61,333 nt of DNA from a bacterium (GTDB lineage: Bacteria; Hinthialibacterota; Hinthialibacteria; Hinthialibacterales; Hinthialibacteraceae). The stretch is taken from the NCBI GenBank assembly GCA_016125385.1, contig WGLV01000017.1, positions 1-61,333 on the forward strand, written 5' to 3'. The notes under the pieces were generated by a model. The model made no database searches. It was not told the origin of the DNA and saw nothing but the letters and a program-made list of their open reading frames with translations. The position numbers and the translations under genes were made by a program. Each line of letters opens with the position of its first letter. Position 1 is the stretch's first letter. Below, piece by piece: positions 556 through 61,329 of this stretch.

Positions 556-2160
556 ATGCCAAGTTCCATCAGCCATGAGCCGAATTCACGAGATTCTCTG
601 GGGCGTATCGTACTCATTTTACTCATCGCGGGAATCGTGCTCCGTGCGGTAAGCCTGTTTCTCCACCCGCTGGTTCCCGGTATTAATGGAGCCTATTACC
701 TCGTTCAGGCCCGCTCCATCCTGCGCGGCGGCGGCCTTGGCATTCCTGACTTTCCCTTGCTCTTTTACATTCAGGCGGGCGCCGGCGCGCTGTTCTCTTT
801 ATTCACCTCGCTGGAAAACGCCCTGCTGTTCACGGTAAAACTCAGCGATTCCATTTTCCCCGCCCTGATCCTGATTCCGGTTTATCTCTTCCTGTTGACG
901 TTTCAGCCGCGCATTCAGACTTCGTCTTCATGGCGGGGCGTCATGCTCTGGGCGGGGCTGTCGGTGATCGCGTCGACCAGCCTGCTTCGCATGATGGGCG
1001 ATTTTCAGAAAAACTCCTTCGCGCTGGTTCTATTTTTCTTCTATTCGTTTTTTCTGTATCGATCCGTGCTCATCCACCAGCGCAAATCGTATTGGCTGAC
1101 CCTGTTGTTCTTCACCCTGATCTGCCTCACTCATCTGGGCGCCACCAGCATGGCGCTTGTGTATACGGCTCTGTTTTTTCTGCTCTACTTTTATTTCAGC
1201 CCCCGCCGCAAGCAGGTATTGATTCTGCTGATCGCGTTGCCGTTTCTGCTCATTCTCGCCCTCGCGCTGGTCGATCGGTTCGATCCGGTGCGGATTGAGA
1301 AAATGCTGTACACCCTCAAAGATCCGCTCCGGCTTTTCGGCCGGCCGGCGTTGTTCGGTGTTCTGGCGGGCATGGGTAGACCTGGTGAAGCCACCGGGTA
1401 CGTGGTGGGTAACATCGCAGGCGTAGCGGGCCTGGTTATCGCGCGGCGCGAATGGGACCGGTTCGATCCCCCCACCCGCGTCCTGCTGATTACATGCAGC
1501 CTGTGCGCTCTTTTTCTGGCGTCTCCGCTGATTCACGGCGACCTGTCGAGCCGCCTCGTCCTGATGGCGTTCGTCCCAGCGTCGATTCCGCTGATCTTCT
1601 GGATGCTGACATCGAAGCGGGGGTATAACCTCGGCAGGATCGTAGTTCTATTGGCGGTAATTCAGGCGCCGTTTCTGCTCTTCTTCATGCCTGCTTCAAT
1701 ATCTCTCGCAGCCTATCAGGAGATGAAAAGTTGCAAGCCGCGGTTGCCCGAAAGCGACGTGTTGATCGTTGCGTCGCACGGGTATGAATGGTGGGCCGCA
1801 TGGACGATGGAGACCAAAATCGCCCAGAGCATGGTCATCGCCCTGAAAATATGGGATCAATACGACGCGGTCTATCAGCTGGAGGTCAAACGACCCATGT
1901 TTCCGGTTCCTCCCGGTCCCGGACCGGGGATGGACGGGCCGGGCGGATCAGGCAGGCCTTTTCCCCCGCCGCCAGGGATGTCTCACCCCGGCGGCCCCGC
2001 CGATCATGGTCAACCGGGGGGAGGCGAATCGTATTTCCCCCAATCGAAACGGCATGAGCCGCTGGAGAACGAAGCGCTTCCTGACAGCATCGAAAGAGAC
2101 GGAGTATTTTATGAGAGCGAAGATATCCGCATCACGCGGCTGAAGCGAGTCAGGGAGTAA
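556..2160 (+). CDS. Polytopic membrane protein, GT-C glycosyltransferase-like, with Pro/Gly-rich tail
   Basis: The 534-residue protein has a short polar N-terminus and then roughly ten hydrophobic segments through about residue 390. The first loop (GINGAYYLVQARSILRGG) resembles the early lumenal/periplasmic loop of GT-C (ArnT/PMT/OST-like) glycosyltransferases, where an acidic residue is usual; here the position is Asn-Gly. Those enzymes move sugars from polyprenyl-phosphate donors. After the last membrane segment there is a soluble tail. Around residues 448-495 it is very rich in Pro and Gly (for example VPPGPGPGMDGPGG), and it ends in a charged stretch. No strong ribosome site precedes the ATG. 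The GT-C assignment rests on topology and one loop, so a transporter or polymerase-like role is not excluded. Confidence 0.6.
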   Translation: MPSSISHEPNSRDSLGRIVLILLIAGIVLRAVSLFLHPLVPGINGAYYLVQARSILRGGGLGIPDFPLLFYIQAGAGALFSLFTSLENALLFTVKLSDSIFPALILIPVYLFLLTFQPRIQTSSSWRGVMLWAGLSVIASTSLLRMMGDFQKNSFALVLFFFYSFFLYRSVLIHQRKSYWLTLLFFTLICLTHLGATSMALVYTALFFLLYFYFSPRRKQVLILLIALPFLLILALALVDRFDPVRIEKMLYTLKDPLRLFGRPALFGVLAGMGRPGEATGYVVGNIAGVAGLVIARREWDRFDPPTRVLLITCSLCALFLASPLIHGDLSSRLVLMAFVPASIPLIFWMLTSKRGYNLGRIVVLLAVIQAPFLLFFMPASISLAAYQEMKSCKPRLPESDVLIVASHGYEWWAAWTMETKIAQSMVIALKIWDQYDAVYQLEVKRPMFPVPPGPGPGMDGPGGSGRPFPPPPGMSHPGGPADHGQPGGGESYFPQSKRHEPLENEALPDSIERDGVFYESEDIRITRLKRVRE

Positions 2161-2167
2161 GTGGTCA

Positions 2168-2186
2168 AAAACAAAGCGCGCCGAAC
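2168..2186 (+). repeat. att-like direct repeat, distal copy (tRNA-Arg 3' end)
   Basis: The sequence aaaacaaagcgcgccgaac is identical to 8369-8387, where it covers the last ten bases of tRNA-Arg(ACG) plus nine flanking bases. Here no tRNA body is attached. The two copies have the same orientation and bracket the AT-rich giant gene. This is the pattern left when an element integrates at the 3' end of a tRNA. Confidence 0.65.
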
Positions 2187-2593
2187 CACTTTTCGGAATA
2201 CGCCTTGCCTTTTTTATTCATAAAAGAATTTTTTTCTATTCGTCTGATTCCATTTCTCTCATTCCAATAATTTGCGCAAATTTTAAGAAACTTTTCCTGT
2301 CGATGCGTCCAAGCATTTGCGTCGTACGCACGCGCCATTCCGGTGGACCGTTGAATGTCCCTGTTTCATCAAACCATTGAGTGAATATCTTTTACAATTA
2401 AACGTCCGTATCTATTTCGTTGAGCGTCCTGGACAGCAAAACATTATGCCAAGCCGCATGAGCAGAGCATAAAAGGAGCAGATTTTATGTAAAATTTTTC
2501 TTGAAATGGCTCTGTACTTCTGTTAGCGTCGATTTAGAAAGATCGGATACCGCAAGAATGCCGCCGTAAAAAGAAAACGATTCCGGAGGAACA
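2187..2593. other. AT-rich non-coding leader upstream of the giant gene
   Basis: This stretch has no convincing coding frame, RNA fold or terminator that I can see. It is AT-rich like the gene after it and is likely to hold that gene's promoter, but I cannot point to confident -35/-10 boxes. Confidence 0.35.
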
Positions 2594-5500
2594 ATGGATT
2601 ATCTAAAATCATTATTTATCAGTATATTATGTCTGTTTTGTACTATTTCCGCTTATTCACAAGTAACGGTTACAGTGAACGGGGCCGCCGGTGAAGATTT
2701 TGATTCGAGGCCGGGCGAAGATACCGGGCTTCCAGAAGACGATCGGATATATGAGACGCTAGGTGCGGCTGTTTCAGACCTGGAGCAACATTTTAATGGT
2801 GGAAAAATCATCCTCGATTCTCCATCCAAAATTGATCCTTTTTTATATGACAGTATTCATTCTAACATCCAAATTGTTGGAATCACCGGGCGCAACAGGT
2901 TGGATTCGAACGGTATCATTGGAATCGAGGGAGGCGAAATCGATATTGATAACGTCATTTTAGATGAATCAAGAATTTATGTGTATGCCAATTCTAAAGT
3001 CAAGTTAGAGAACTGTTTTTTAACTGGGCTAGTGGACAATCAGGGTGGAATTCGAATTAAGGATAATAATACCCACATTGAGGTCAATAACACCATTTTT
3101 GAGAAATGCCGTCTTGCTGTTGAAGTGGCCGAATTTAGCGCTGATACCGTCATACATAATTCAACTTTCACCAATTGCACAAGTCACGCCATTGTCGACA
3201 AGCATTCGCAAGGAACATCAGAATTCGATTCATTATTCATTCAAGGCGGCGGAACAGGAATACAAATATCCAGCGGAGCTAAAACCGCAACAAATATCTT
3301 AAGTTCTACTATCGTTAATATGAATACGAATGGAATCGAATTAGTGGCCGCGGCCAATGTCAAAATCTCCAATTGCAACATCCAGAACGCCAGCAACCAG
3401 GGCGTCTATTTTGACCAGGTTTCAGACGCGACTTTGGAGCACTGTAAAATATCTCAATGCGGAGACAATTTACAAAATCTGCCTTTTGCGCTTCCCACTG
3501 CAGGAGGAATCGGCGGGAAGCGGATCGAGAATTTTTTATCTATAAAAAATTGCACTGTTTCCAACAATCCAGGGTCAGGTATTCACTTTCAATTCTCTAA
3601 TCAGATCGTTATTCAAGATTGTATTGTAAACAGCAATAAAAAAAGCGGTATCCGTATCGAAGATGTTACCAGCGCACAGTTAATTAACGATGTTGCGCGA
3701 GAAAATATTACTGGTCCGAATAATTTGCATGGAGGAGGGATTTGCCTTTTACGCGTCCACAACTCGCTCATTGAAAAAGCGACAATAGAACTCAACACAG
3801 CCAGCGTGGGGCATGGAGGGGGCGTCTATGCCAGCGAGACAAATGCAACATTCATAGACAATCAAATAATGCAAAATAAATCTCAAAACAATGGAGGCGG
3901 GTGCGCGTTAGAGAACCAGTGCGAATCCTCCTTTGAAAGCAATACATTCAGAGAAAATCAAGCGGGCCTAAATGGCGGGGGCTTATTCAATAATGGAGGA
4001 ATCATCCAGATAAAATCTTCCATTTTTACCCAAAACCATTGTGATAATAATGGAGGTGGAATTTGTTTGATTGACATGCATACGGCTCGCACGGACATAA
4101 TCGACAGCCAATATATTTCAAATACTTCCTTTCAAAATGGAGGCGGTATTTATGTCGGTGGGCAAAGTTCGAATGGCATTGTCATCGGTTCGAAAACCAA
4201 CAATTTGATAAAACAAAATAAAGCAAAGCGGAATGGCGGAGGCATCTGTTTTGAAAATGTTGAATCATCTAATGTCGGCGTTTTCATTAGCGCCGGCGAC
4301 AAAAAGACTGCAAGTCCTTTAAATTTTATCGGCAATGAAGCCGAAGGCGGAAGCGGAGGAGGCGTTTTTATCAATAAATGCAAATCAATTGATCTCGATG
4401 GCGGCAATAATTTCTATAAAAACAAAGCCAATGGCGATAGTCCTCTTATGGATAAATCAATCGCCCGTGCAGGGAATGGAGGTGGACTCGCGGTTGAAAA
4501 TTCGACAGATATTATCATAGGGAATTCTACTTTTGGCAACGATGACCAAAATCAAGGGAATGGCAATATCGCGAAAAATAACGGCGGAGGTTTTTATGTT
4601 TATCGCTCTACTATATTCTTTGGTGGCGGAGCGACTGGAGTGGGAGGGCCGGTTTGTGGAAATGAAGCAATGCTTGGTAATGGAGGAGGCATCGCGATTG
4701 TGGAATCCAGCGAGGCTCCTCTCGTCAACAATCAATTGGGATTGGTTTCAATTACGCTGCATGTCATCAAACAAAATAAAGCGACTGCTCCAATACCTCA
4801 AGGAATTCAAGCCTACCAATCTCATGTCGGCAATGGCGGGGGCATATCTATAACGGTAAATTCGAGCAACGTTGTTTTAGATGGCGGCCGTAACTTTCAA
4901 CTAATTATTGGCAGCGATCTTAGAGGAGGGAAAAATATCAATCTTGATGAAGGAAACCAGGCTTCCGCAAATGGCGGAGGAATATTCGTGGAAAGTTCAA
5001 ATCCCGTTATTAAAAATGCTTTTATATTCGCCAATATAAGCAAAAATGGATGCGGCGGCGGAATCGCATTCATGGGGAAAGTTCCATTTGATCTTCTTAT
5101 TCCTGATTATCCAAACGCCATTTTAAAAGACAGCATAATACAAGCGAATAAAGCGATAGCTGTGCGTCCCGCTGTCCCTGACACGCTTAGAACAGACTCT
5201 CTTGTTGGAAACGGGGGAGGAATAGCTTGTTTATTGAACGCCAATGATGTCATTATTGCAGGATGTTTAATCGGTCCCGCAACAGATGAAAAGGAGGATA
5301 TCCAACCAATAAAGGGCAACATGGCTGAAAATAATGGAGGAGGTATTTATACATTTTCGTCTTTGCCAACATTGTCGGCTTCTATTTCTACAAAAACAAC
5401 CGCTTTGGTTGTTCACCACAACAATGCGAAAGGTTCAGGCGGGGGCGTCGCAATCCGGGATGAAAGCAAAGACGCTGTTTTGCCATTAATTATAAAAGGA

Positions 5501-8083
5501 ACAATAATCACAAAAAATAGCGCTGAAGAATCTGGCGGGGGAGTCGCAATATTAGATGAAGCCAACGATGCAAATGTTGAAGAAGCGAATATAGAATCGA
5601 ATATCGCTCAGAAAGATGGAGGTGGAATTTATATACGACGATCTAACCCTGATTTAGGAAATTCTCAAAATTCTTTAAATTTTTTTCTACATGATACGAA
5701 ATTGGCTATACAGCAAAATCACTCAATCAATGGGGACGGGGGTGGGATTGCGATAGAAAATGACAGCGAAGATGACGAATCTTTTCTGGAAATACAAGGG
5801 GCTGTAATAAAGAACAATATTGCAGAAAATGGAAATGGAGGGGGCCTCGCCTTTCTTAATGGCAGTCACAATGTAAAACTGGAATATTGTCTCATCGGAA
5901 TTGATGAGAACGGGAATAAAGCAGGAAATGAAGCGATGAAAGGCGCTGGCGGAGGAATATATATAAACAATTCATTGCCTTTCATCGGAGGAGAAAGAAT
6001 CCCGCTACCTCCACTAGGGCGATTCCCCCGCATGTCCGTTAATACTATTTCTTTCAATTCCGCCCGAAATGGCGGCGGAATTGGTTTATCAAATGCCTTG
6101 GCTGGACGTATATTAGGCAATGATATAACAAAAAATCGAGCACTAAATATGGGAGGCGGCGTATATTGTTCCGCGGCATCTTCAATGATTGGTCCAGTGA
6201 ATCCACCCCCTCTTCCTTTTTCGGATTTTCTTCAGGGCGGTAATTTTATATCTGAAAATTCGGCCCAAATTGGCGGAGGCATTGCTTTGACGGATAGAGC
6301 AACTCCTCAAATTCGCTGGAATGTAATCAATAATAACACTGTAACCGGTGGGGCTGGAGCCACTGGAGGCATTTATACTACGGGTGAAGGCACAAATCCC
6401 GAAATCACAAATTGCGACATTCTCTCAAATGAGGATGATGGAATTCGATCAATCAACGGCAGCAAACCATTAATACAAAATAATATTATAGATTCAAACG
6501 GGGGATATGGTTTAACAGCATCTCTGCTCGATGTATTAAAGAATGGAGGAGATTTTGCCGGCAATTGCCTTCACAAAAATGGGAAAGGCGCATTTGGTCC
6601 TGATACAAAAAATATGCTCATGCCATTTAGCCAGGAGAAAGCGAATTTTGGGCAAGATCCTGTTTTTTTAAATCGGCCCCTTCAAGATTATCGATTAACA
6701 GAAAACTCCCCCTGTTCACCGGGGAATTCTCCTCCCGGAACAAAATTAATCGGCGCATGGCCGGGACCAATTGTCCAGATGCCAACTCAAGAATTAGCAA
6801 TTAACGCTCAATACCACGATGCGGATTTTGGAGATATCAATGGAGATGGATTAATCGATTTGGCCGTATCAACCACCGGCAAAGATTTCATTCTTTTGAA
6901 TTCAGGATTGAATAATTTTGAGGAAAGCATCCTCATTCAAATAACTCCCGACGCAGTCGATCACAGCCGAGCCATCGAACTGGGAGATATTGATGGAGAC
7001 GGCGATCTTGATGTTGTAATCGCTGATGCCGTCAAGGATATACTGGCCATCAATTCCGGAGATGAATTTATTGATGCTTCAGATTCTCTTGCATCTTCTG
7101 GATCATCAAATAATGTGAAAATGGCGGATATGAATAATTCAGGAGCATTGGATATTCTTTTCGCGAAAACGACCGAGAATGTACTGTATATTGGAGATGG
7201 AAAAGGTAATTTTACTTTGGCGTCCAGTAATCTTGGAAATGAATCCAGAAATACTAATGACATAGGCATAGGAGATCTCGATGCGGATGGAGATTTAGAT
7301 CTCTATATAGCCAATACCGGTCAAGATTCTGTTTTACTCAATGATGGCAATGGTTTTTTCACTGCTGGCCCAACTCCGCCTTACGCTTTGGAGAGCGAGT
7401 GCGTTACATTAGGAGATGTAGACGAAGATGGCGATCTAGACGTATTTGTGGCTGGTTCTATAGAAAAAGCGCTGCTCATCAATCAGGGCAATGCGACTTT
7501 CACGGACTTTTCCACGAACTTGCCCCAATTTCAAACGGAAATTATCGACGCTGATTTCGCTGATTTAAACAATGATGGCAAATTGGATATTCTGATCGCA
7601 TTGAGCCACGAAAGAGCTGTTTTTATAAACAACGGAGAGTTATCTTTTTCAGAAGATATTTCAAAATCCACATCCAGCGAGATGTACGTACAGTCTGATG
7701 CTGCTGATATTGATGGAGACGGAATTTTAAACTCTGTTTATGTTCATGAGACCGGACTTCAGTTTGTGGATTACTATTACTTGAGCCAAACGCATGAATT
7801 TCCTGTTATATTCACAGCACCTTACCAAGTTCCCTCGAGTGGTTTAATCAGTCTGACGAAAACAGGATATTTTCCGAGTATCCGTAATTCAGATATTAGA
7901 ATAGATGATCGTAACATAAAGAATTTTTTAGTAAACATTTCTCAATTGTCCGCAAAAATTCCGGACGGCTTCAGAAATGGAGAATATGTCATGGAATTAT
8001 TTAAAAATAATAAACGAACAGACTCTACAACAATCAGAGTAGGAGATCTGATTGTCAATGTCGATCAATGGTGGAAATACTGA
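2594..8083 (+). CDS. Giant secreted parallel beta-helix / FG-GAP (VCBS) repeat protein
   Basis: The 1829-residue product starts after a strong ribosome site (GGAGGAACA-ATG) with a signal peptide ending near residue 22 (TISAYS-Q). Residues ~40-1350 are a right-handed beta-helix region. About 25 turns carry xGGG[IVLF], mostly NGGGI, in the style of chlamydial Pmp and NosD-like proteins. Residues ~1355-1395 (DYRLTENSPC...IGAWPG) match the usual end cap of these helices. Residues ~1405-1725 contain seven calcium-binding FG-GAP/VCBS loops (DINGDGLIDL, DIDGDGDLDV, DLDADGDLDL, DVDEDGDLDV and others). The last ~100 residues look like an IPT/TIG-type beta-sandwich (AKIPDGFRNGEYVMEL). No membrane anchor, LPXTG motif or T9SS tail is obvious. 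Likely role: surface adhesion or carbohydrate interaction. Base composition is foreign to the neighbours and the gene sits alone within the tRNA-bounded segment. Confidence 0.85.
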   Translation: MDYLKSLFISILCLFCTISAYSQVTVTVNGAAGEDFDSRPGEDTGLPEDDRIYETLGAAVSDLEQHFNGGKIILDSPSKIDPFLYDSIHSNIQIVGITGRNRLDSNGIIGIEGGEIDIDNVILDESRIYVYANSKVKLENCFLTGLVDNQGGIRIKDNNTHIEVNNTIFEKCRLAVEVAEFSADTVIHNSTFTNCTSHAIVDKHSQGTSEFDSLFIQGGGTGIQISSGAKTATNILSSTIVNMNTNGIELVAAANVKISNCNIQNASNQGVYFDQVSDATLEHCKISQCGDNLQNLPFALPTAGGIGGKRIENFLSIKNCTVSNNPGSGIHFQFSNQIVIQDCIVNSNKKSGIRIEDVTSAQLINDVARENITGPNNLHGGGICLLRVHNSLIEKATIELNTASVGHGGGVYASETNATFIDNQIMQNKSQNNGGGCALENQCESSFESNTFRENQAGLNGGGLFNNGGIIQIKSSIFTQNHCDNNGGGICLIDMHTARTDIIDSQYISNTSFQNGGGIYVGGQSSNGIVIGSKTNNLIKQNKAKRNGGGICFENVESSNVGVFISAGDKKTASPLNFIGNEAEGGSGGGVFINKCKSIDLDGGNNFYKNKANGDSPLMDKSIARAGNGGGLAVENSTDIIIGNSTFGNDDQNQGNGNIAKNNGGGFYVYRSTIFFGGGATGVGGPVCGNEAMLGNGGGIAIVESSEAPLVNNQLGLVSITLHVIKQNKATAPIPQGIQAYQSHVGNGGGISITVNSSNVVLDGGRNFQLIIGSDLRGGKNINLDEGNQASANGGGIFVESSNPVIKNAFIFANISKNGCGGGIAFMGKVPFDLLIPDYPNAILKDSIIQANKAIAVRPAVPDTLRTDSLVGNGGGIACLLNANDVIIAGCLIGPATDEKEDIQPIKGNMAENNGGGIYTFSSLPTLSASISTKTTALVVHHNNAKGSGGGVAIRDESKDAVLPLIIKGTIITKNSAEESGGGVAILDEANDANVEEANIESNIAQKDGGGIYIRRSNPDLGNSQNSLNFFLHDTKLAIQQNHSINGDGGGIAIENDSEDDESFLEIQGAVIKNNIAENGNGGGLAFLNGSHNVKLEYCLIGIDENGNKAGNEAMKGAGGGIYINNSLPFIGGERIPLPPLGRFPRMSVNTISFNSARNGGGIGLSNALAGRILGNDITKNRALNMGGGVYCSAASSMIGPVNPPPLPFSDFLQGGNFISENSAQIGGGIALTDRATPQIRWNVINNNTVTGGAGATGGIYTTGEGTNPEITNCDILSNEDDGIRSINGSKPLIQNNIIDSNGGYGLTASLLDVLKNGGDFAGNCLHKNGKGAFGPDTKNMLMPFSQEKANFGQDPVFLNRPLQDYRLTENSPCSPGNSPPGTKLIGAWPGPIVQMPTQELAINAQYHDADFGDINGDGLIDLAVSTTGKDFILLNSGLNNFEESILIQITPDAVDHSRAIELGDIDGDGDLDVVIADAVKDILAINSGDEFIDASDSLASSGSSNNVKMADMNNSGALDILFAKTTENVLYIGDGKGNFTLASSNLGNESRNTNDIGIGDLDADGDLDLYIANTGQDSVLLNDGNGFFTAGPTPPYALESECVTLGDVDEDGDLDVFVAGSIEKALLINQGNATFTDFSTNLPQFQTEIIDADFADLNNDGKLDILIALSHERAVFINNGELSFSEDISKSTSSEMYVQSDAADIDGDGILNSVYVHETGLQFVDYYYLSQTHEFPVIFTAPYQVPSSGLISLTKTGYFPSIRNSDIRIDDRNIKNFLVNISQLSAKIPDGFRNGEYVMELFKNNKRTDSTTIRVGDLIVNVDQWWKY

Positions 8084-8117
8084 ATCATATTATTCCGGTT
8101 TCATGCAAAAATTTTCT

Positions 8118-8235
8118 GATCCAGTTGAAGTGAGAGTTCCAGCGTTGTTTTTATGCTTATGAATCGTGTGAATAAACGATTACGCTCGTTTCTTCAAACA
8201 TTTGAGGATACGCCCAAGGGTAGTCCAAGGAGCTC
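8118..8235 (+). repeat. Dispersed repeat, copy 1 (imperfect hairpin at 8170-8195)
   Basis: About 118 bases match 61213-61329 in the same orientation, starting with an identical 21-base block at gatccagttgaagtgagag. Over the first ~80 bases the copies differ at about 13 positions. A 10-bp stem (gaataaacga / tcgtttcttc) has one mismatch here and is perfect in the other copy. No reading frame is shared, so this is probably a small non-autonomous element or the end of an insertion sequence. Confidence 0.7.
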
Positions 8236-8368
8236 ATTGAATCACCTTGAACGATCCAGGAAGGTAGAATTTATATCTCGATAGAACTCGTCTCTGCTTA
8301 AGAATTCGCTTTTCATCTGTGTACAATTTTGTGTACACCCCAATTCCGCAAATCAGCTGACTCCAGAC

Positions 8369-8387
8369 AAAACAAAGCGCGCCGAAC
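8369..8387 (+). repeat. att-like direct repeat, tRNA-proximal copy
   Basis: The 19 bases are identical to 2168-2186. Bases 8378-8387 are the final ten bases of the tRNA-Arg gene read on the minus strand; the other nine lie just beyond its 3' end. Integration here would leave the tRNA intact, as is usual for tRNA-targeting recombinases. Confidence 0.65.
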
Positions 8388-8451
8388 AGGATTCGAACCT
8401 GTAACCTCCTGATCCGTAGTCAGGTGCTCTATCCAATTGAGCCATCGGCGC
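8378..8451 (-). tRNA. tRNA-Arg, anticodon ACG
   Basis: The minus strand folds as a standard 74-base tRNA. The acceptor stem is GCGCCGA/TCGGCGC with discriminator G. The D-arm is in GGCTCAATTGGATAGAGC. The anticodon arm is CCTGA-CTACGGA-TCAGG with ACG at the wobble-to-third positions. The variable region is AGGTT, and the T-arm is ACAGG-TTCGAAT-CCTGT. CCA is not encoded. ACG (read as ICG) decodes CGN arginine codons. Its 3' end overlaps the putative attachment repeat. Confidence 0.97.
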
Positions 8452-8621: not shown

Positions 8622-10733
8622 TTATTTCGGAGCATACTCGTTCATTCGCCCGATGGTAAACACGATCGGCTCGCCCGAATCACGCGCCGTCACCACGCTC
8701 AGAGCGTAATCCACCTTGTCGCTCAGCGGACCGGGATACCGCAACACTCCCGCGTCCACCGCCGGCAGGTCGAAACTTCGCCATGCGGAAAACGGCTCCG
8801 TATCCCCGGGCAAAAGATCGTTCCATACATACTCCTGATCGTATTGGCGAAGGGTCAGCGACATTGAGCGAACCTCGTTCCAGTTCGAGCATTTCATCGT
8901 CAATGTCAATACGAAATCGCTTACAACGATCAGATCCTTGCCATCCATCCGCGTCTGAATGACCGCCGATTGTGGATCGCCAGAAGGCTGGATGGCGAAC
9001 TCCAGTGTTTTTTCATCGGCTATCGCGGGCGCGGACGCCAGATTCGCGCGTAGCGTCCAACCGCCGGGTTCGAAATACGGATCGCCCTGAACGAAAGCCG
9101 CGGGCGCCGCATCGGTGATATAGACAGGGAGCGAGCGATCGCCCGCCGACAGCGGCGTCAGGCGCTGACCGATCACCGCCTCCAGACTGGGCGCGTCCAC
9201 AGGCGCCGCATCCGTCAATCGCACCCGCTGCGGCCGTTTGCGCAGCCAGGTTAACGCGGCGTATCCCGTGGGACCATGAGCGTAGCGCTGAAAGTAGACG
9301 TTGTGGTTAATGAACGGCTCCAGTTCATCCATCAATTGAAGCCGCGTCAGACGATCAAGCTGATGGACGGCGCGTTCCTGCTCAGCCGCCCGATCATCAA
9401 TGCGGTGATACCCCATGACCAGAGCCACCAGCAACGCGGCCGCCAGCGCGGGGGTAAAGAGCACCCGCAACGCAACCCGCCAGCGGAATCGCATCGAACG
9501 CCACGCGGCCCATCCCGGCAATACGAGACGTCCCGCCATCGCGCCAAGCACCCACGCCAGCGCCAGTTCACACGCGAGGGGATTCCCCTCGCCCAATAAC
9601 GCCGCTTTCCCCAGCGAAAACAGCATCCACGTCAACGGAACCGCCAGCGTCCGCCGCCAGGGCGAAACCCAAAGCAGTTGAATATACGCCGCCAACGCCA
9701 GCGAATACGCGTCCAGCACGGGGATCTCGTAATAACGGCTGGCGTGATAGATCCCCGTCATGGCGACGACGCCCACCGCGATGGCGAGATAACCTGCCAC
9801 GCGAGCACGAGTCAACGCGAGGGTCACGATCACGACGCCAATGCCCAAAAGCAAGCGGTGTCCAAACAGCAACCCCGCCGCATGGGCGAAATCATGCAAC
9901 AGAGCCTGTTGTGAAAGATAATCCGGATCGCCCGGCGTCAACGCCGCCGGGAGCCAACTGACAGGCGGCTGAAAGGCATCGCTCACGCCAAGAATCACGC
10001 CGATCAACACCAGACCGAAAAGAAAGTGAGCAACCCGGCTGAACGCAGAGCCTTCGCGGACGGAAAACGCTTCGGCCAGGTAGACGAATGGAAGCACGAA
10101 CAACGTTTTCCAGTCGGCGTAAGCAACCGCCGCGATCATCAGAAAAAACATGAACGAATTGCATAGCGAGTTCCGCTCAATCGCCTTGCGCAGGGTATAA
10201 AACGACGCCAGCGCGAAGAATACCGGACAGAGGAGGTTCAAAGCAGCCGGCTCGAGAAATACGCCCCGGCTGACCGGCAAGGCCATCAGCGCCAGAATCG
10301 CCAGCGCTCCGCCCGGGGCGGTTCCATCCCGCCGGTTCCATGCGAAGACGATCGCGGCGCAGGCGGCGAACCATAACGCCAGCGCCAGCCGGTGCATATA
10401 CGGATCGAGTCCGATGAGGCGATACTCGGCCCATGCCGCGAACCGCGTGGTCTGCATCAGTGAAACCTGATTGAATTTGCTCATGCAGACTGTGGGGAGA
10501 TCGACGAAGGTTTTCCAGGGCTGGTTATATGACTCCTGCGCTTCCCACAGGCGGTCCATCTCCCACCCGCTTAATTCGAAATGGAAGGTGCGCCCGGCGA
10601 ACAGCATCACGCAAAACAGCGCGACGCCAAGCCAGACGGCGTGCGAGGCGCGCCAGGGCGGCGTTTTGGGCTTGGGGGCGTATTCTTCGGAAAGCTGGCT
10701 CATTGAGGGCGGAGGCAGGGCGTCATTATTCAT
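8622..10733 (-). CDS. Polytopic membrane protein with C-terminal soluble domain, possible GT-C family
   Basis: The product is about 703 residues. A cytoplasmic Pro-rich N-terminus (ALPPPSMSQ) is followed by a first membrane segment near residues 30-50, then a periplasmic loop with acidic residues (ELSGWEMDRLWEAQ), and about ten more hydrophobic segments to residue ~440. The last ~260 residues are soluble and beta-rich (PYFEPGGWTLRANL onward). This plan, with multiple spans, an acidic first loop and a lumenal tail, resembles GT-C glycosyltransferases, but no signature is decisive. The ATG at 10733 is favoured because GGGGAA lies just upstream; an alternative ATG is at 10751. It lies 42 bases (24 with the longer start) after pgpA on the same strand and is probably the last gene of the rimO-pgpA transcript. 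Confidence 0.55.
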   Translation of the reverse strand: MNNDALPPPSMSQLSEEYAPKPKTPPWRASHAVWLGVALFCVMLFAGRTFHFELSGWEMDRLWEAQESYNQPWKTFVDLPTVCMSKFNQVSLMQTTRFAAWAEYRLIGLDPYMHRLALALWFAACAAIVFAWNRRDGTAPGGALAILALMALPVSRGVFLEPAALNLLCPVFFALASFYTLRKAIERNSLCNSFMFFLMIAAVAYADWKTLFVLPFVYLAEAFSVREGSAFSRVAHFLFGLVLIGVILGVSDAFQPPVSWLPAALTPGDPDYLSQQALLHDFAHAAGLLFGHRLLLGIGVVIVTLALTRARVAGYLAIAVGVVAMTGIYHASRYYEIPVLDAYSLALAAYIQLLWVSPWRRTLAVPLTWMLFSLGKAALLGEGNPLACELALAWVLGAMAGRLVLPGWAAWRSMRFRWRVALRVLFTPALAAALLVALVMGYHRIDDRAAEQERAVHQLDRLTRLQLMDELEPFINHNVYFQRYAHGPTGYAALTWLRKRPQRVRLTDAAPVDAPSLEAVIGQRLTPLSAGDRSLPVYITDAAPAAFVQGDPYFEPGGWTLRANLASAPAIADEKTLEFAIQPSGDPQSAVIQTRMDGKDLIVVSDFVLTLTMKCSNWNEVRSMSLTLRQYDQEYVWNDLLPGDTEPFSAWRSFDLPAVDAGVLRYPGPLSDKVDYALSVVTARDSGEPIVFTIGRMNEYAPK

Positions 10734-10775
10734 GATTCGCGGGTTCCCCATCGCGCGGTCGGCGCGTCGATACCG

Positions 10776-21984: not shown

Positions 21985-23532
21985 TCAGTGTTCAGTTCCT
22001 GTTTCGGCCTCGCTGTGGATCTCCTGAGCCTGGGCTTCATACCACGGCTCGCTCAGATAGGGCTTGACCGATTCGGTGATCTGTTGCGCCGTGGGCTCGA
22101 TCGTCTTGAGAATGGGCTGCGGGTACATGCCGATGATGAAGCAAGCGATCGCGATCGGCAGCAGAATGCTGAACTCGCGTTTATCGAGATCGCTCAGCCC
22201 TCTGTTTTCTTCCACGGTAATGGGGCCGAACATCATTCGCTTATAGAGACGAAGGAGATAGGCCGCGCCGAGTATCACGCCGGTGGCGGCCAGAACAGTC
22301 GCCGTGATATTGCTGCCCATCAGGCCGGCGAGAATGAGAAACTCGCCGACGAAACCGTTCAGCCCGGGCAGACCGATCGACGACAGCGCGAAGATCATGA
22401 AGAATGCGGCGTATACCGGCATCACTTTGGCGATCCCGCCGAATTGTTCCACGTCGCGGGTGTGGCGGCGGTCATAGATCATGCCGACGACCAGGAAAAG
22501 TCCGCCGGTCGACAACCCGTGATTGATCATCTGCAAAATGCCGCCCGACAGGCCCTGCACGTTCCACGCCAACAGCCCCGCCAATAACACGCCCATGTGG
22601 CTGACGGATGAATAGGCGACCAGCTTTTTGACGTCCTGCTGAACCATGGCCACCATCGCGCCGTAAATCACGCCAATCAGCGCCAGCGCCATCAGCCACG
22701 GGGTGAAATAAACCACCGCTTCAGGGAAGATCGGCACGGCGAAACGCAGGAAACCGTACACGCCCGTTTTAAGCAGCACGCCCGCCAGAATCACCGAACC
22801 CGCCGTGGGCGCTTCGGTATGGGCGTAAGGCAGCCAGGTATGGAACGGAAACAGCGGCATCTTGATCAGAAACGCCAGCACGAAGCCCACGAACAGCCAG
22901 CGCTGCACGGAAGCGTCCAGACCGAGATTAACGAAGTTCACATAGTTAAACGAAGGCGCGCCGCCATACAGCCGCCACGCCTGAAAGTACAGATAAAACA
23001 TCACCAGCAGCAGCAACACCGAACCGAAGGCGGTGTACAGGAAAAACTTGATGCTGGCGTAAACGCGCTCTTTGCCGCCCCAGACGCCGATGATGAAGTA
23101 CATCGGAACCAGCAGCAGCTCGAAGAAGAGATAAAACAGAAAGAGGTCCAGCGCCATGAACGAGCCCAGCATGCCCGTCTCAAGCACCAGCATGAAGAAG
23201 TAATACTCTTTCTGCATTTTTTCGATGGAACGGAACGACGCCGCGATGGAGAGCGTCGTCAGCAGCGTGGTCAGCACGATCAGGATCAGACTCATGCCGT
23301 CGATTCCAAGGCGGAAATCGACGCCCAGCGCGGGAATCCACGGGACCAGCACGCCCATCTGAAAATCGCTCTGGCCGTATTGAAACGCCATCAGCATCGG
23401 AACGCACAACGCCAGCGGGATCAGCGAGACGAACAGCGCGACGTGCTTGTGCGTCCCTTCGAAGGCGCGGGGAACCAGCAGCAGCAACAGCGCCCCGATC
23501 AGCGGCGTAAACAGAATCAGCGTCAGTAGCAT
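21985..23532 (-). CDS. nuoM: NADH-quinone oxidoreductase subunit M
   Basis: The 515-residue protein is one of the three antiporter-like proton-pumping subunits of complex I. About 14 membrane segments are visible. Family blocks include GIDGMSLILIVLTTLL, FELLLVPMYFIIG with its conserved Glu, KMPLFPFHTWLPYAHTEAP, KKLVAYSSVSHMG and GLPGLNGFVGEFL. The start overlaps the end of nuoL by ten bases, so translation is coupled. It is the last gene of this operon; in the standard order nuoN would follow it, but here nuoN lies before nuoL. Confidence 0.96.
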   Translation of the reverse strand: MLLTLILFTPLIGALLLLLVPRAFEGTHKHVALFVSLIPLALCVPMLMAFQYGQSDFQMGVLVPWIPALGVDFRLGIDGMSLILIVLTTLLTTLSIAASFRSIEKMQKEYYFFMLVLETGMLGSFMALDLFLFYLFFELLLVPMYFIIGVWGGKERVYASIKFFLYTAFGSVLLLLVMFYLYFQAWRLYGGAPSFNYVNFVNLGLDASVQRWLFVGFVLAFLIKMPLFPFHTWLPYAHTEAPTAGSVILAGVLLKTGVYGFLRFAVPIFPEAVVYFTPWLMALALIGVIYGAMVAMVQQDVKKLVAYSSVSHMGVLLAGLLAWNVQGLSGGILQMINHGLSTGGLFLVVGMIYDRRHTRDVEQFGGIAKVMPVYAAFFMIFALSSIGLPGLNGFVGEFLILAGLMGSNITATVLAATGVILGAAYLLRLYKRMMFGPITVEENRGLSDLDKREFSILLPIAIACFIIGMYPQPILKTIEPTAQQITESVKPYLSEPWYEAQAQEIHSEAETGTEH

Positions 23533-49364: not shown

Positions 49365-49645
49365 ATCCCGCTCGCTTCAGTGACCAGCGGGAGCGCTAAA
49401 CGCGCATAGCCCAAAGACTAGGCAGCCAACACTTTCGGCCTCCCCCAAACTTTGGGGGAGGAAACGTTGGTCGATCCCGCTCACCTCAGTGACCAGCGGG
49501 AGCGCTAAACGCGCATAGCCCAAAGACTCGGCAGCCAACACTTTCGGCCTCCCCCAAACTTTGGGGGAGGAAACGTTGGTCGATCCCGCTCACCTCAGTG
49601 ACCAGCGGGAGCGCTAAACACGCATAGCCCAAAGACTCGGCAGCC
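49365..49645. repeat. 109-bp tandem repeat, 2.6 copies
   Basis: Units begin with atcccgctc at 49365, 49474 and 49583, exactly 109 bases apart; the third is cut after about 63 bases. The first two differ at only a few positions. Each full unit contains a perfect palindrome (cctcccccaaa-c-tttgggggagg) and a second stem around cccgct...agcggg. Related partial sequences occur near 39546, 46738, 49217 and 49662. Confidence 0.85.
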
Positions 49646-52256: not shown

Positions 52257-53027
52257 TCATTTACCGTCATAGTCACTATTACTTCTCTCCGGCAATTCAT
52301 CCCAAAAAGAAAGCAAGGCTTTGACATATTCTTGAAGTGTATTCTCATCTATTTGAAGAGTTTCTTTCAATAAAGTTGTTTTATAGCTTGTCATGTAATC
52401 GACGTTGTTATTAACAATAAAAAGAGAAGGATTCAATTCGCGCAGATTTTTTGCAGAATTTCCATCCCCATGTTTGATAACATTGCAAAGCGTTTTTAAC
52501 TCCTCTATTTTTCCCCAGCAAGGAAAGAGCGAAACCTTAACGTTGTGGGTACAAAACACCTTCTTTATATTTCTTAAATTCGTGCAAAATTCTGGAAACT
52601 TAATCGAACAAGATCCGTTCATCTCTGTGTATAAAAATTTTCGCAATTGCTGTTCAAAAAGTTCATAAAGAGTTGCATGCCATGCGGCAGTTAATGTATA
52701 TTTTCCAAGCCTCAATGTTTGAAAGAGAGCATCGCCACGCCCGATTGCATTCTCCGCAATTTCATCTGCGCAGTAAAAATCTTCAGTATTTGTACTGCGC
52801 ATCTTGGAATTATAGTGATTATTTGCCTCATCTTCTGCTTCTTTTTCTATTTCTTCAAAAACAGGCCGCAGTTTTTTTCTATAAATTAAAACGAAGTCGC
52901 TGATTTGATTTTTGTAGCGATCACGTTCTGTTGGTGGTAAATATAGTTGACTCATAATGCTTTTCTCAAAGTGTTGCAATTCGCTTTCTCTCTGCACACT
53001 TCGTATAATTGAAATTTGGATCATCAT
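52257..53027 (-). CDS. AT-rich orphan protein, possibly HEPN-like
   Basis: The 256-residue, mainly helical protein has no signal peptide or membrane span. GGGGTG sits four bases before the ATG. The DNA is much poorer in G+C than its neighbours (52561-52620 has 18 G+C of 60), which points to recent acquisition. The middle part (AAWHATLYELFEQQLRKFLY) and the later CNVIKHGDGNSAKNLREL, with the substrate-site-like N-x-x-K-H, recall uncharacterised HEPN-type proteins of defence islands, but the canonical R-x4-6-H is not clear. It diverges from the HigA-like regulator, with a dyad between them. Confidence 0.6.
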   Translation of the reverse strand: MMIQISIIRSVQRESELQHFEKSIMSQLYLPPTERDRYKNQISDFVLIYRKKLRPVFEEIEKEAEDEANNHYNSKMRSTNTEDFYCADEIAENAIGRGDALFQTLRLGKYTLTAAWHATLYELFEQQLRKFLYTEMNGSCSIKFPEFCTNLRNIKKVFCTHNVKVSLFPCWGKIEELKTLCNVIKHGDGNSAKNLRELNPSLFIVNNNVDYMTSYKTTLLKETLQIDENTLQEYVKALLSFWDELPERSNSDYDGK

Positions 53028-53085
53028 ATTTCACCCCATAAATCCCGTTGTGTCAATTCCGAATTTCAAAACCCGCTTGACGGGC

Positions 53086-53103
53086 TATCGCATTTTTGCG
53101 ATA
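53086..53103. promoter_or_regulatory. Operator-like dyad between the orphan gene and the XRE regulator
   Basis: Perfect arms tatcgca / tgcgata around tttt, 46 bases before the ATG at 53150 and 58 bases before the divergent start at 53027. Antitoxins of this family usually bind such dyads at their own promoter. Binding is inferred. Confidence 0.4.
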
Positions 53104-53149
53104 AAAACAAAAAGCGTTATCCTCACGCGGATTCATCAGGATATGAGTT

Positions 53150-53467
53150 ATGAAGCAGGTTAGGAAAATGGACGCGCTTTCGACTATCCGGCGGAAATTC
53201 GGAAATTACCCCGGCTTTGAAGAAGGAGTCGATCAGGCCAGGACGGATTTAGTCATCGGCCAGTTGATTTACGACGCGCGGATGGAGGCGGGGCTGTCGC
53301 AGGCCGAGCTCGCCAAGCGCGTGGGGACGACTCAGTCCGTCATCTCGCGGCTGGAAGAGGCCGACTATGAAGGCCATTCGCTCAGCATGCTGCAGCGGGT
53401 GGCGGCGGCGCTGAACAAGCGGGTGCGCATCGAGTTCGAACCCGCCGAGCCTTCCTCGGGAGGTTGA
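53150..53467 (+). CDS. HigA/XRE-family antitoxin-like transcriptional regulator
   Basis: The 105-residue protein has an N-terminal extension (RKFGNYPGFEEGVDQARTD) and an XRE helix-turn-helix: LIYDARMEAGLSQAELAKRV, GTTQSVISRLEEADYEGHSL, SMLQRVAAALNKRVRIEF. This layout is that of HigA antitoxins whose HigB toxin normally lies just upstream. Here there is no HigB; the upstream neighbour is the divergent AT-rich gene. It is either an orphan regulator or the partner of that gene. AGGA sits eight bases before the ATG. Confidence 0.8.
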   Translation: MKQVRKMDALSTIRRKFGNYPGFEEGVDQARTDLVIGQLIYDARMEAGLSQAELAKRVGTTQSVISRLEEADYEGHSLSMLQRVAAALNKRVRIEFEPAEPSSGG

Positions 53468-61129: not shown

Positions 61130-61212
61130 TCATCCTCCGGTGGCGGAAAAATGGGTGGAATCATCCATCATAATGCGAGTAAACCAATACCCCTGTCTAG
61201 CCCCGTTTTTTT

Positions 61213-61329
61213 GATCCAGTTGAAGTGAGAGTTTTTGCGTTGTTCTTATGCTTGTGAATCCTGTGAGGAAACGAGCGCGCTCGTTTCCTCAAGCGGCTGT
61301 GGACAAACCGGAGGCTTGTCCAAGGGACT
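61213..61329 (+). repeat. Dispersed repeat, copy 2, with perfect 26-base palindrome
   Basis: Matches 8118-8235 in the same orientation. Bases 61265-61290 are a perfect palindrome (gaggaaacgagcg / cgctcgtttcctc); a second stem ggacaa / ttgtcc follows. It runs to the window edge, so its right boundary is not seen. Confidence 0.72.

Follow-up and report, generated by a model that had tools for sequence, protein, structure and literature searches.

A probable immobilised remnant of an integrated element, with a foreign AT-rich gene, at the 3' end of tRNA-Arg(ACG) in a Hinthialibacterota bacterium

Cis-mobilizable elements (CIMEs) are decayed elements that are bounded by attachment sites, have no recombination genes and bear cargo (PMC7563491). 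They descend from conjugative or mobilisable elements; classical CIMEs span 1.2-13 kb, and solitary ones are expected and hard to find (PMC7563491). The tDNA islands defined by Islander consist of a tDNA and a displaced 3' fragment separated by 2-200 kb, with an integrase gene as a requirement, and the junction of the T and acceptor stems is one of their listed crossover sub-sites (PMC4383910). Phage satellites include the Gram-negative PICIs and the P4-like elements (PMC6092414). The ssrA islands of Dehalococcoides lie at one tmRNA gene, have no integration modules, carry cargo and are possible cis-mobilizable elements (PMC3146451).

We compared these systems with a segment (positions 2168-8387) of a 61,333-nucleotide stretch of bacterial DNA, here called the window. 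As in an Islander island, an intact tDNA is followed downstream by a 3' fragment of like orientation, the 6.2 kb between them fall within 2-200 kb, and the fragment lies outside conserved protein domains, but the segment contains no integrase gene. Like the Dehalococcoides ssrA islands it is integrase-less and cargo-bearing, whereas those islands have a serine recombinase and tandem partners (PMC3146451) and the segment has no adjoining partner. It differs from PICIs and P4-like elements in having neither an integrase nor an AlpA-like regulator nor a replication module; the likeness to such satellites belongs to 7.6-8.4-kb elements at tRNA genes of related genera, and the segment is tied to these by its location and by weak flank similarity next to the tRNA, and by nothing else. 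The closest match is a solitary CIME: the segment has no recombination or transfer genes, carries cargo and is bounded by attachment sites, and we regard it as best described as a CIME-like relic. Its core repeats are perfect, with arm sites on the tRNA side only. CIMEs arise when deletions reduce an ICE or IME; the segment bears marks of decay (a broken frame and a transposon relic). In contrast to CIMEs, the tRNA-associated elements of this phylum look more phage-satellite-like.

A first-pass annotation of the window had proposed an AT-rich island, inserted at the 3' end of tRNA-Arg(ACG) and bracketed by an exact 19-bp direct repeat unlikely to arise by chance, whose right copy would be the last ten bases of the tRNA plus nine flanking bases. 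Indeed, we found the repeat, AAAACAAAGCGCGCCGAAC, in identical copies at 2168-2186 and 8369-8387. The intact target gene, the only one with anticodon ACG among the 44 tRNA genes of the genome, is located on the reverse strand at 8377/8378-8451 (ARAGORN; 8378-8451 in Rfam, 70.9 bits), and this position confirms the proposed make-up of the right copy, the tRNA-side attachment site (8369-8387, forward strand). The left copy (2168-2186, forward strand) is intergenic and represents the displaced 3' fragment. It begins at the T-stem/acceptor-stem junction of the tRNA, is found on the correct side of tRNA-Arg(ACG) in the same orientation, and has its far edge 7 nt beyond the stop codon of the 556-2160 gene. 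Many unrelated copies of the motif would have spoken against an insertion; a second-site search allowing up to two mismatches found a unique pair in the 5.53-Mb genome and no third copy. As a control, we took the 44 tRNA genes with an available 3' flank and scanned the following 15 kb, or as much of it as the contig offered, for a copy of the 3' part. No downstream 3'-end copy longer than 13 bp was present for 42 of them, the two outliers being tRNA-Arg(ACG), with 19 bp at 6.2 kb, and tRNA-Asn, with 30 bp. Over all 44 tRNAs, we put the probability that 19 bp of a tRNA 3' end recur by chance within 15 kb at about 1e-4, and the control tRNAs otherwise show nothing comparable.

The base composition also drops as sharply as had been noted, from 52-58% GC outside to 40-43% inside the segment, and the best two-breakpoint segmentation by likelihood places the AT-rich part at 2210-8330. 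The sole large open reading frame of the segment is an intact gene of 1,829 aa (2594-8083, forward strand), preceded by a good Shine-Dalgarno sequence, GGAGGA. Its product has a signal-peptide-like stretch at the N terminus, a long stretch of right-handed beta-helix in which NGGGI motifs recur, and FG-GAP repeats at about 1400-1690, near the C terminus. Judged from these domain types, it is a predicted secreted beta-helix/FG-GAP protein that probably serves as a surface adhesin or in glycan binding; a check for a defence role found none. Close relatives were absent from GTDB contigs, IMG/VR, plasmids and phages, and for lack of relatives structure prediction was poor, with AlphaFold models from the single sequence reaching pLDDT values of 31 and 41, too low for use. 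The GC content at third codon positions (GC3) is 0.36, versus 0.69-0.74 (about 0.70) in neighbouring genes. In this genome, seven further FG-GAP genes have GC3 values of 0.57-0.75, from which the giant gene stands out; the FG-GAP family is thus at home in this genome and the giant gene foreign to it.

In 10 of 14 genomes from this phylum, many tRNA genes (for Arg, Trp, Glu, Pro, Thr and Lys) have a GATTTTANTRGACTTACG-like box about 4 nt past their 3' end, mostly followed 27-30 nt beyond the box by an element-specific direct-repeat pair with units of 7-12 nt, 11 bp apart. The box on the tRNA side roughly matches in position the place where IHF binds in lambda attP. Two complete elements were found, one of 7.6 kb at tRNA-Arg(TCG) in genome G003, with a 70-bp terminal copy that starts in the anticodon loop and the repeat pair GTGCTAGCA at both ends, and one of 8.4 kb at tRNA-Pro(TGG) in genome G004, with AAGTCAACAC repeats at both ends. 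Since the same pair recurs at both ends of each element, we take the repeat pairs to be integrase arm-type sites. Both elements encode a P4-family integrase, a small HTH (AlpA-like) protein and a DUF3987 or DnaB-like helicase/primase, with a terminase small subunit gene in the G003 element, and from this gene content they look phage-satellite-like. The cargo in G004 is an AT-rich (36% GC) gene for a secreted FGE-sulfatase/CarboxypepD_reg protein, and apiosidase and esterase genes lie close to the end of an element in G002. In the related genera, tRNA genes are integration sites of satellite-like elements able to carry secreted-protein cargo. The loci of this family are L066:2064-9830, L118:10963-19459, L054:5861-7242, L121:7067-8557, L130, L131, L135 and L198, and the box with element-specific arms is common to mutually dissimilar integrases (the L066/L118 type and the C66/L121 type). 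About 45 box matches in genome G005 belong to dispersed MITE-like repeats and were hence rejected as attachment sites; these repeats, for example L097-L114, have GAGCCTCTTGCAAAATTC-like inverted ends and contain an 18-mer, GATTTTAATGGACTTACG, that is also found in the tRNA-side box. A tentative and rather unlikely extension of these observations is that one system spans the phylum: satellite-like elements whose integrases are unrelated would share one attachment-site architecture (the conserved GATTTTANTRGACTTACG box just after the tRNA, then an interchangeable arm pair 11 bp apart) and would carry genes for large secreted proteins, of surface or glycan-active type, from one tRNA site to another, our segment being one outcome.

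We next to the tRNA of the window located a putative integrase arm-type repeat pair, TGTACAC-N5-TGTACAC (8319-8337, reverse strand). With 3-6 nt allowed between the units, the pair occurs three times in the 14 genomes, and all three occurrences adjoin a tRNA 3' end or 3' fragment. As about two random matches are expected from base frequency in these genomes, it is the placement of the pairs and not their number that counts as evidence. In genome G001, the pair has tRNA-Gly(CCC) on one side and an intact tyrosine integrase gene on the other, in an element that is likewise AT-rich (36-43% GC). The remaining pair is located on contig C6 of the window's own genome (L203:595-722), 55 nt before a 3' fragment of tRNA-Gly(CCC); this site is the far end of another island, and a full tRNA-Gly(CCC) gene is absent among the 44 tRNAs found in this genome. 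The window's pair, which is nearly palindromic, is oriented opposite to those in G001 and C6 relative to the tRNA. By their anatomy, the TGTACAC pairs are putative arm-type sites, and a search for TGTACAC sites at the far (left) end of the segment found none. A diverged P' flank (8351-8375, reverse strand) is identical in 20 of 25 positions to the 3' flank of tRNA-Arg(TCG) on contig C66, the best match among 946 tRNA-flank pairs within the genome. C66 harbors the second tRNA-Arg island of this genome, with an integrase gene that converges on its tRNA. Scored against the general P' consensus of the relatives, the window flank ranks 7th of 44, and in a scan of about 122,000 window positions with a simple profile of their box, the window site comes 64th; given these ranks, the case for an island leans on the arm pair and on the likeness to C66 rather than on the box. 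The tDNA and its 3' fragment in correct order and orientation, together with the TGTACAC arms in the flank, support the proposed insertion at the tRNA 3' end.

The first-pass annotation had noted the absence of an integrase, and we found neither an integrase nor a recognisable integrase remnant anywhere in 2168-8387. Its further suggestion, that the island relies on the enzyme of another element, did not gain support, and a decayed segment that no longer moves accounts for more of the observations. A genome-wide search identified five tyrosine recombinases, all on other contigs (XerC-like, XerD-like, and those of C66, C36 and C77); none is like the TGTACAC-type integrase, save weakly that of C66, and none is cognate to TGTACAC arms. 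The C66 integrase was considered as an enzyme acting in trans, given its similar tRNA-Arg site, and was rejected, as the arm repeats of its own element, TTGCAC/GTGCAATC, are unlike TGTACAC. All genomes are draft assemblies in which several contigs end inside elements, and as the window's genome is 95.8% complete, its assembly may lack a cognate integrase. We consider it unlikely that the segment can still be mobilised as a cargo or satellite island, behaving like a CIME or satellite and being excised or accreted by an arriving or resident cognate integrase. Perfect 19-bp copies, an arm pair intact at one end, and the attachment-site end left on C6 by an element of the same arm specificity would all suit such an island; the lack of a cognate enzyme among the five recombinases, the deviating C66 arms and the missing arm sites at the far end speak against it, as does the core at C6, which is an anticodon-loop core and differs from the 19-bp core.

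The giant gene is flanked by decayed sequence on both sides. The reading frame at 2239-2568 (reverse strand) is interrupted by three TAA codons and is probably a decayed gene, and a search of the phylum gave best matches with E values of 0.07 or worse and no credible homologue. On the tRNA side, a dispersed repeat has left a relic (8112-8230, forward strand) that shares 79% identity over 119 nt with intact copies at four contig ends, among them the right end of its own contig (61207-61325); the repeat is probably a transposon end, and relic and intact end together explain a 22-bp match between 8117 and 61212 in the window. The probable transposon end, TGTCTAGCCCCGTTTTTT..., is found at 61207-61325 of the window and, in the same genome (G000), at C66:49955-50073, C65:9-127, C3:9-127 and C4:43320-43387. 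Its location at several contig ends indicates that a multi-copy transposon interrupts the assembly, one of the breaks being the right edge of the window. The segment might alternatively combine two histories, an old attachment-site scar and an AT-rich gene that arrived later by homologous or transposon-mediated recombination. The diverged transposon end does separate the giant gene from the arm pair, and element ends that lack adjoining element genes are seen at many tRNA flanks of the phylum; we nevertheless regard this scenario as quite improbable, given that the composition shift falls at the repeats themselves, that the left side has no transposon end, and that comparable secreted cargo is present in other elements.

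Outside the island, the left flanking gene (556-2160, forward strand, 534 aa) has a host-like GC3 of 0.69, and no credible relatives of the left flank were found within the family. The right flanking gene (8622-10751, reverse strand) stands in a block with PgpA, RimO-like and PSP1 genes. These three genes are kept on the 5' side of tRNA-Arg(ACG) in genomes G001, G002 and G003, with a counterpart of the 8622-10751 gene at this locus in G001 only and not in G002 or G003. The 3' side holds AbiE genes (a type IV toxin-antitoxin system) and a zeta-like gene in G001, a primase gene and, further on, CRISPR-type genes in G002, and yet other genes in G003. As its content differs in each genome, the 3' side of this tRNA is variable ground, and G001 and G002 have islands of other kinds after the same tRNA-Arg(ACG).

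Taken together, the segment is probably what remains, now immobile, of an element with a tyrosine integrase that entered the 3' end of tRNA-Arg(ACG), and it has kept a foreign AT-rich cargo gene. The locus itself presents a repeat, a P'-like arm pair, foreign composition and broken neighbours, and neither an integrase nor P arms. We infer an order of events from this arrangement, in which a crossover in the 3' part of the tRNA-Arg(ACG) gene would have integrated the element, regenerating the tRNA with the P' end of the element on one side and displacing the 3' fragment 6.2 kb away. A later deletion may have stripped the element of its integrase, its remaining core genes and the arm sites of the far (P) end, with the broken frame as a leftover, and a transposon would have arrived in the segment and then decayed. 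The cargo gene would have stayed open, with a secreted beta-helix/FG-GAP product that may still be in use. This remnant reading is supported by the coincidence of the composition limits with the repeats, by the arm pair, by the C66-like P' flank and by the marks of decay, and also by secreted cargo of a like kind in the G004 and G002 elements. Against it count the opposite direction of the arm pair, the box rank of 7th of 44, the cargo without a close relative, and the length of the displaced fragment, which in the complete relatives is about 43 nt, starting from the anticodon loop, compared with only 10 tRNA bases here. The short fragment may reflect either a crossover at the T/acceptor junction or trimming of a longer fragment. 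A repeat that arose by chance or through accidental copying of the tRNA end, beside an ordinary resident gene of unusual composition, would fit the mere 10 tRNA bases in the displaced copy, but is highly improbable in view of the estimate of about 1e-4 over all tRNAs, the control tRNAs with nothing comparable, the TGTACAC arm pair, and a GC3 of 0.36 against 0.57-0.75 in host FG-GAP genes. Taken by itself, the segment is only modestly interesting; as an immobilised remnant, it provides a clear case, in a poorly studied phylum, of cargo that outlives its mobile element, and the satellite-like family with its common box and specific arms makes the pairing of integrases with arm sites, and the choice of cargo, testable by sequence.

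We also noted several smaller features in this genome. At the control outlier tRNA-Asn(GTT) (L150:33-470; G000:C48, about 22232-22669), an exact 30-bp copy of the 3' end is located about 306-334 bp downstream, and the small open reading frame in between reads as a complete GIY-YIG nuclease; from its sequence, the locus reads like a very compact attachment-site-flanked nuclease insert. The 3' flanks of tRNA-Trp(CCA) (L151) and tRNA-Gln(CTG) (L159) are box-like (CACTTACGG and ATTTACTGAAGTTATTGCAC, respectively), the DNA beyond them is AT-rich (41% and 46% GC), and both flanks are possible further relics. Besides the 19-bp repeat, the window has two long repeats, the 22-bp match described above and, at positions 49365-49645, an intergenic tandem array of 2.6 copies of a 109-bp unit with 97% identity and a CCCCCAAACTTTGGGGG palindrome inside. 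A second AT-rich patch (52257-53467, 41% GC) contains a 256-aa open reading frame without a Pfam match, adjoined on the opposite strand by a small HTH_3 gene; this patch could be a toxin-antitoxin-like locus or a mobile remnant.
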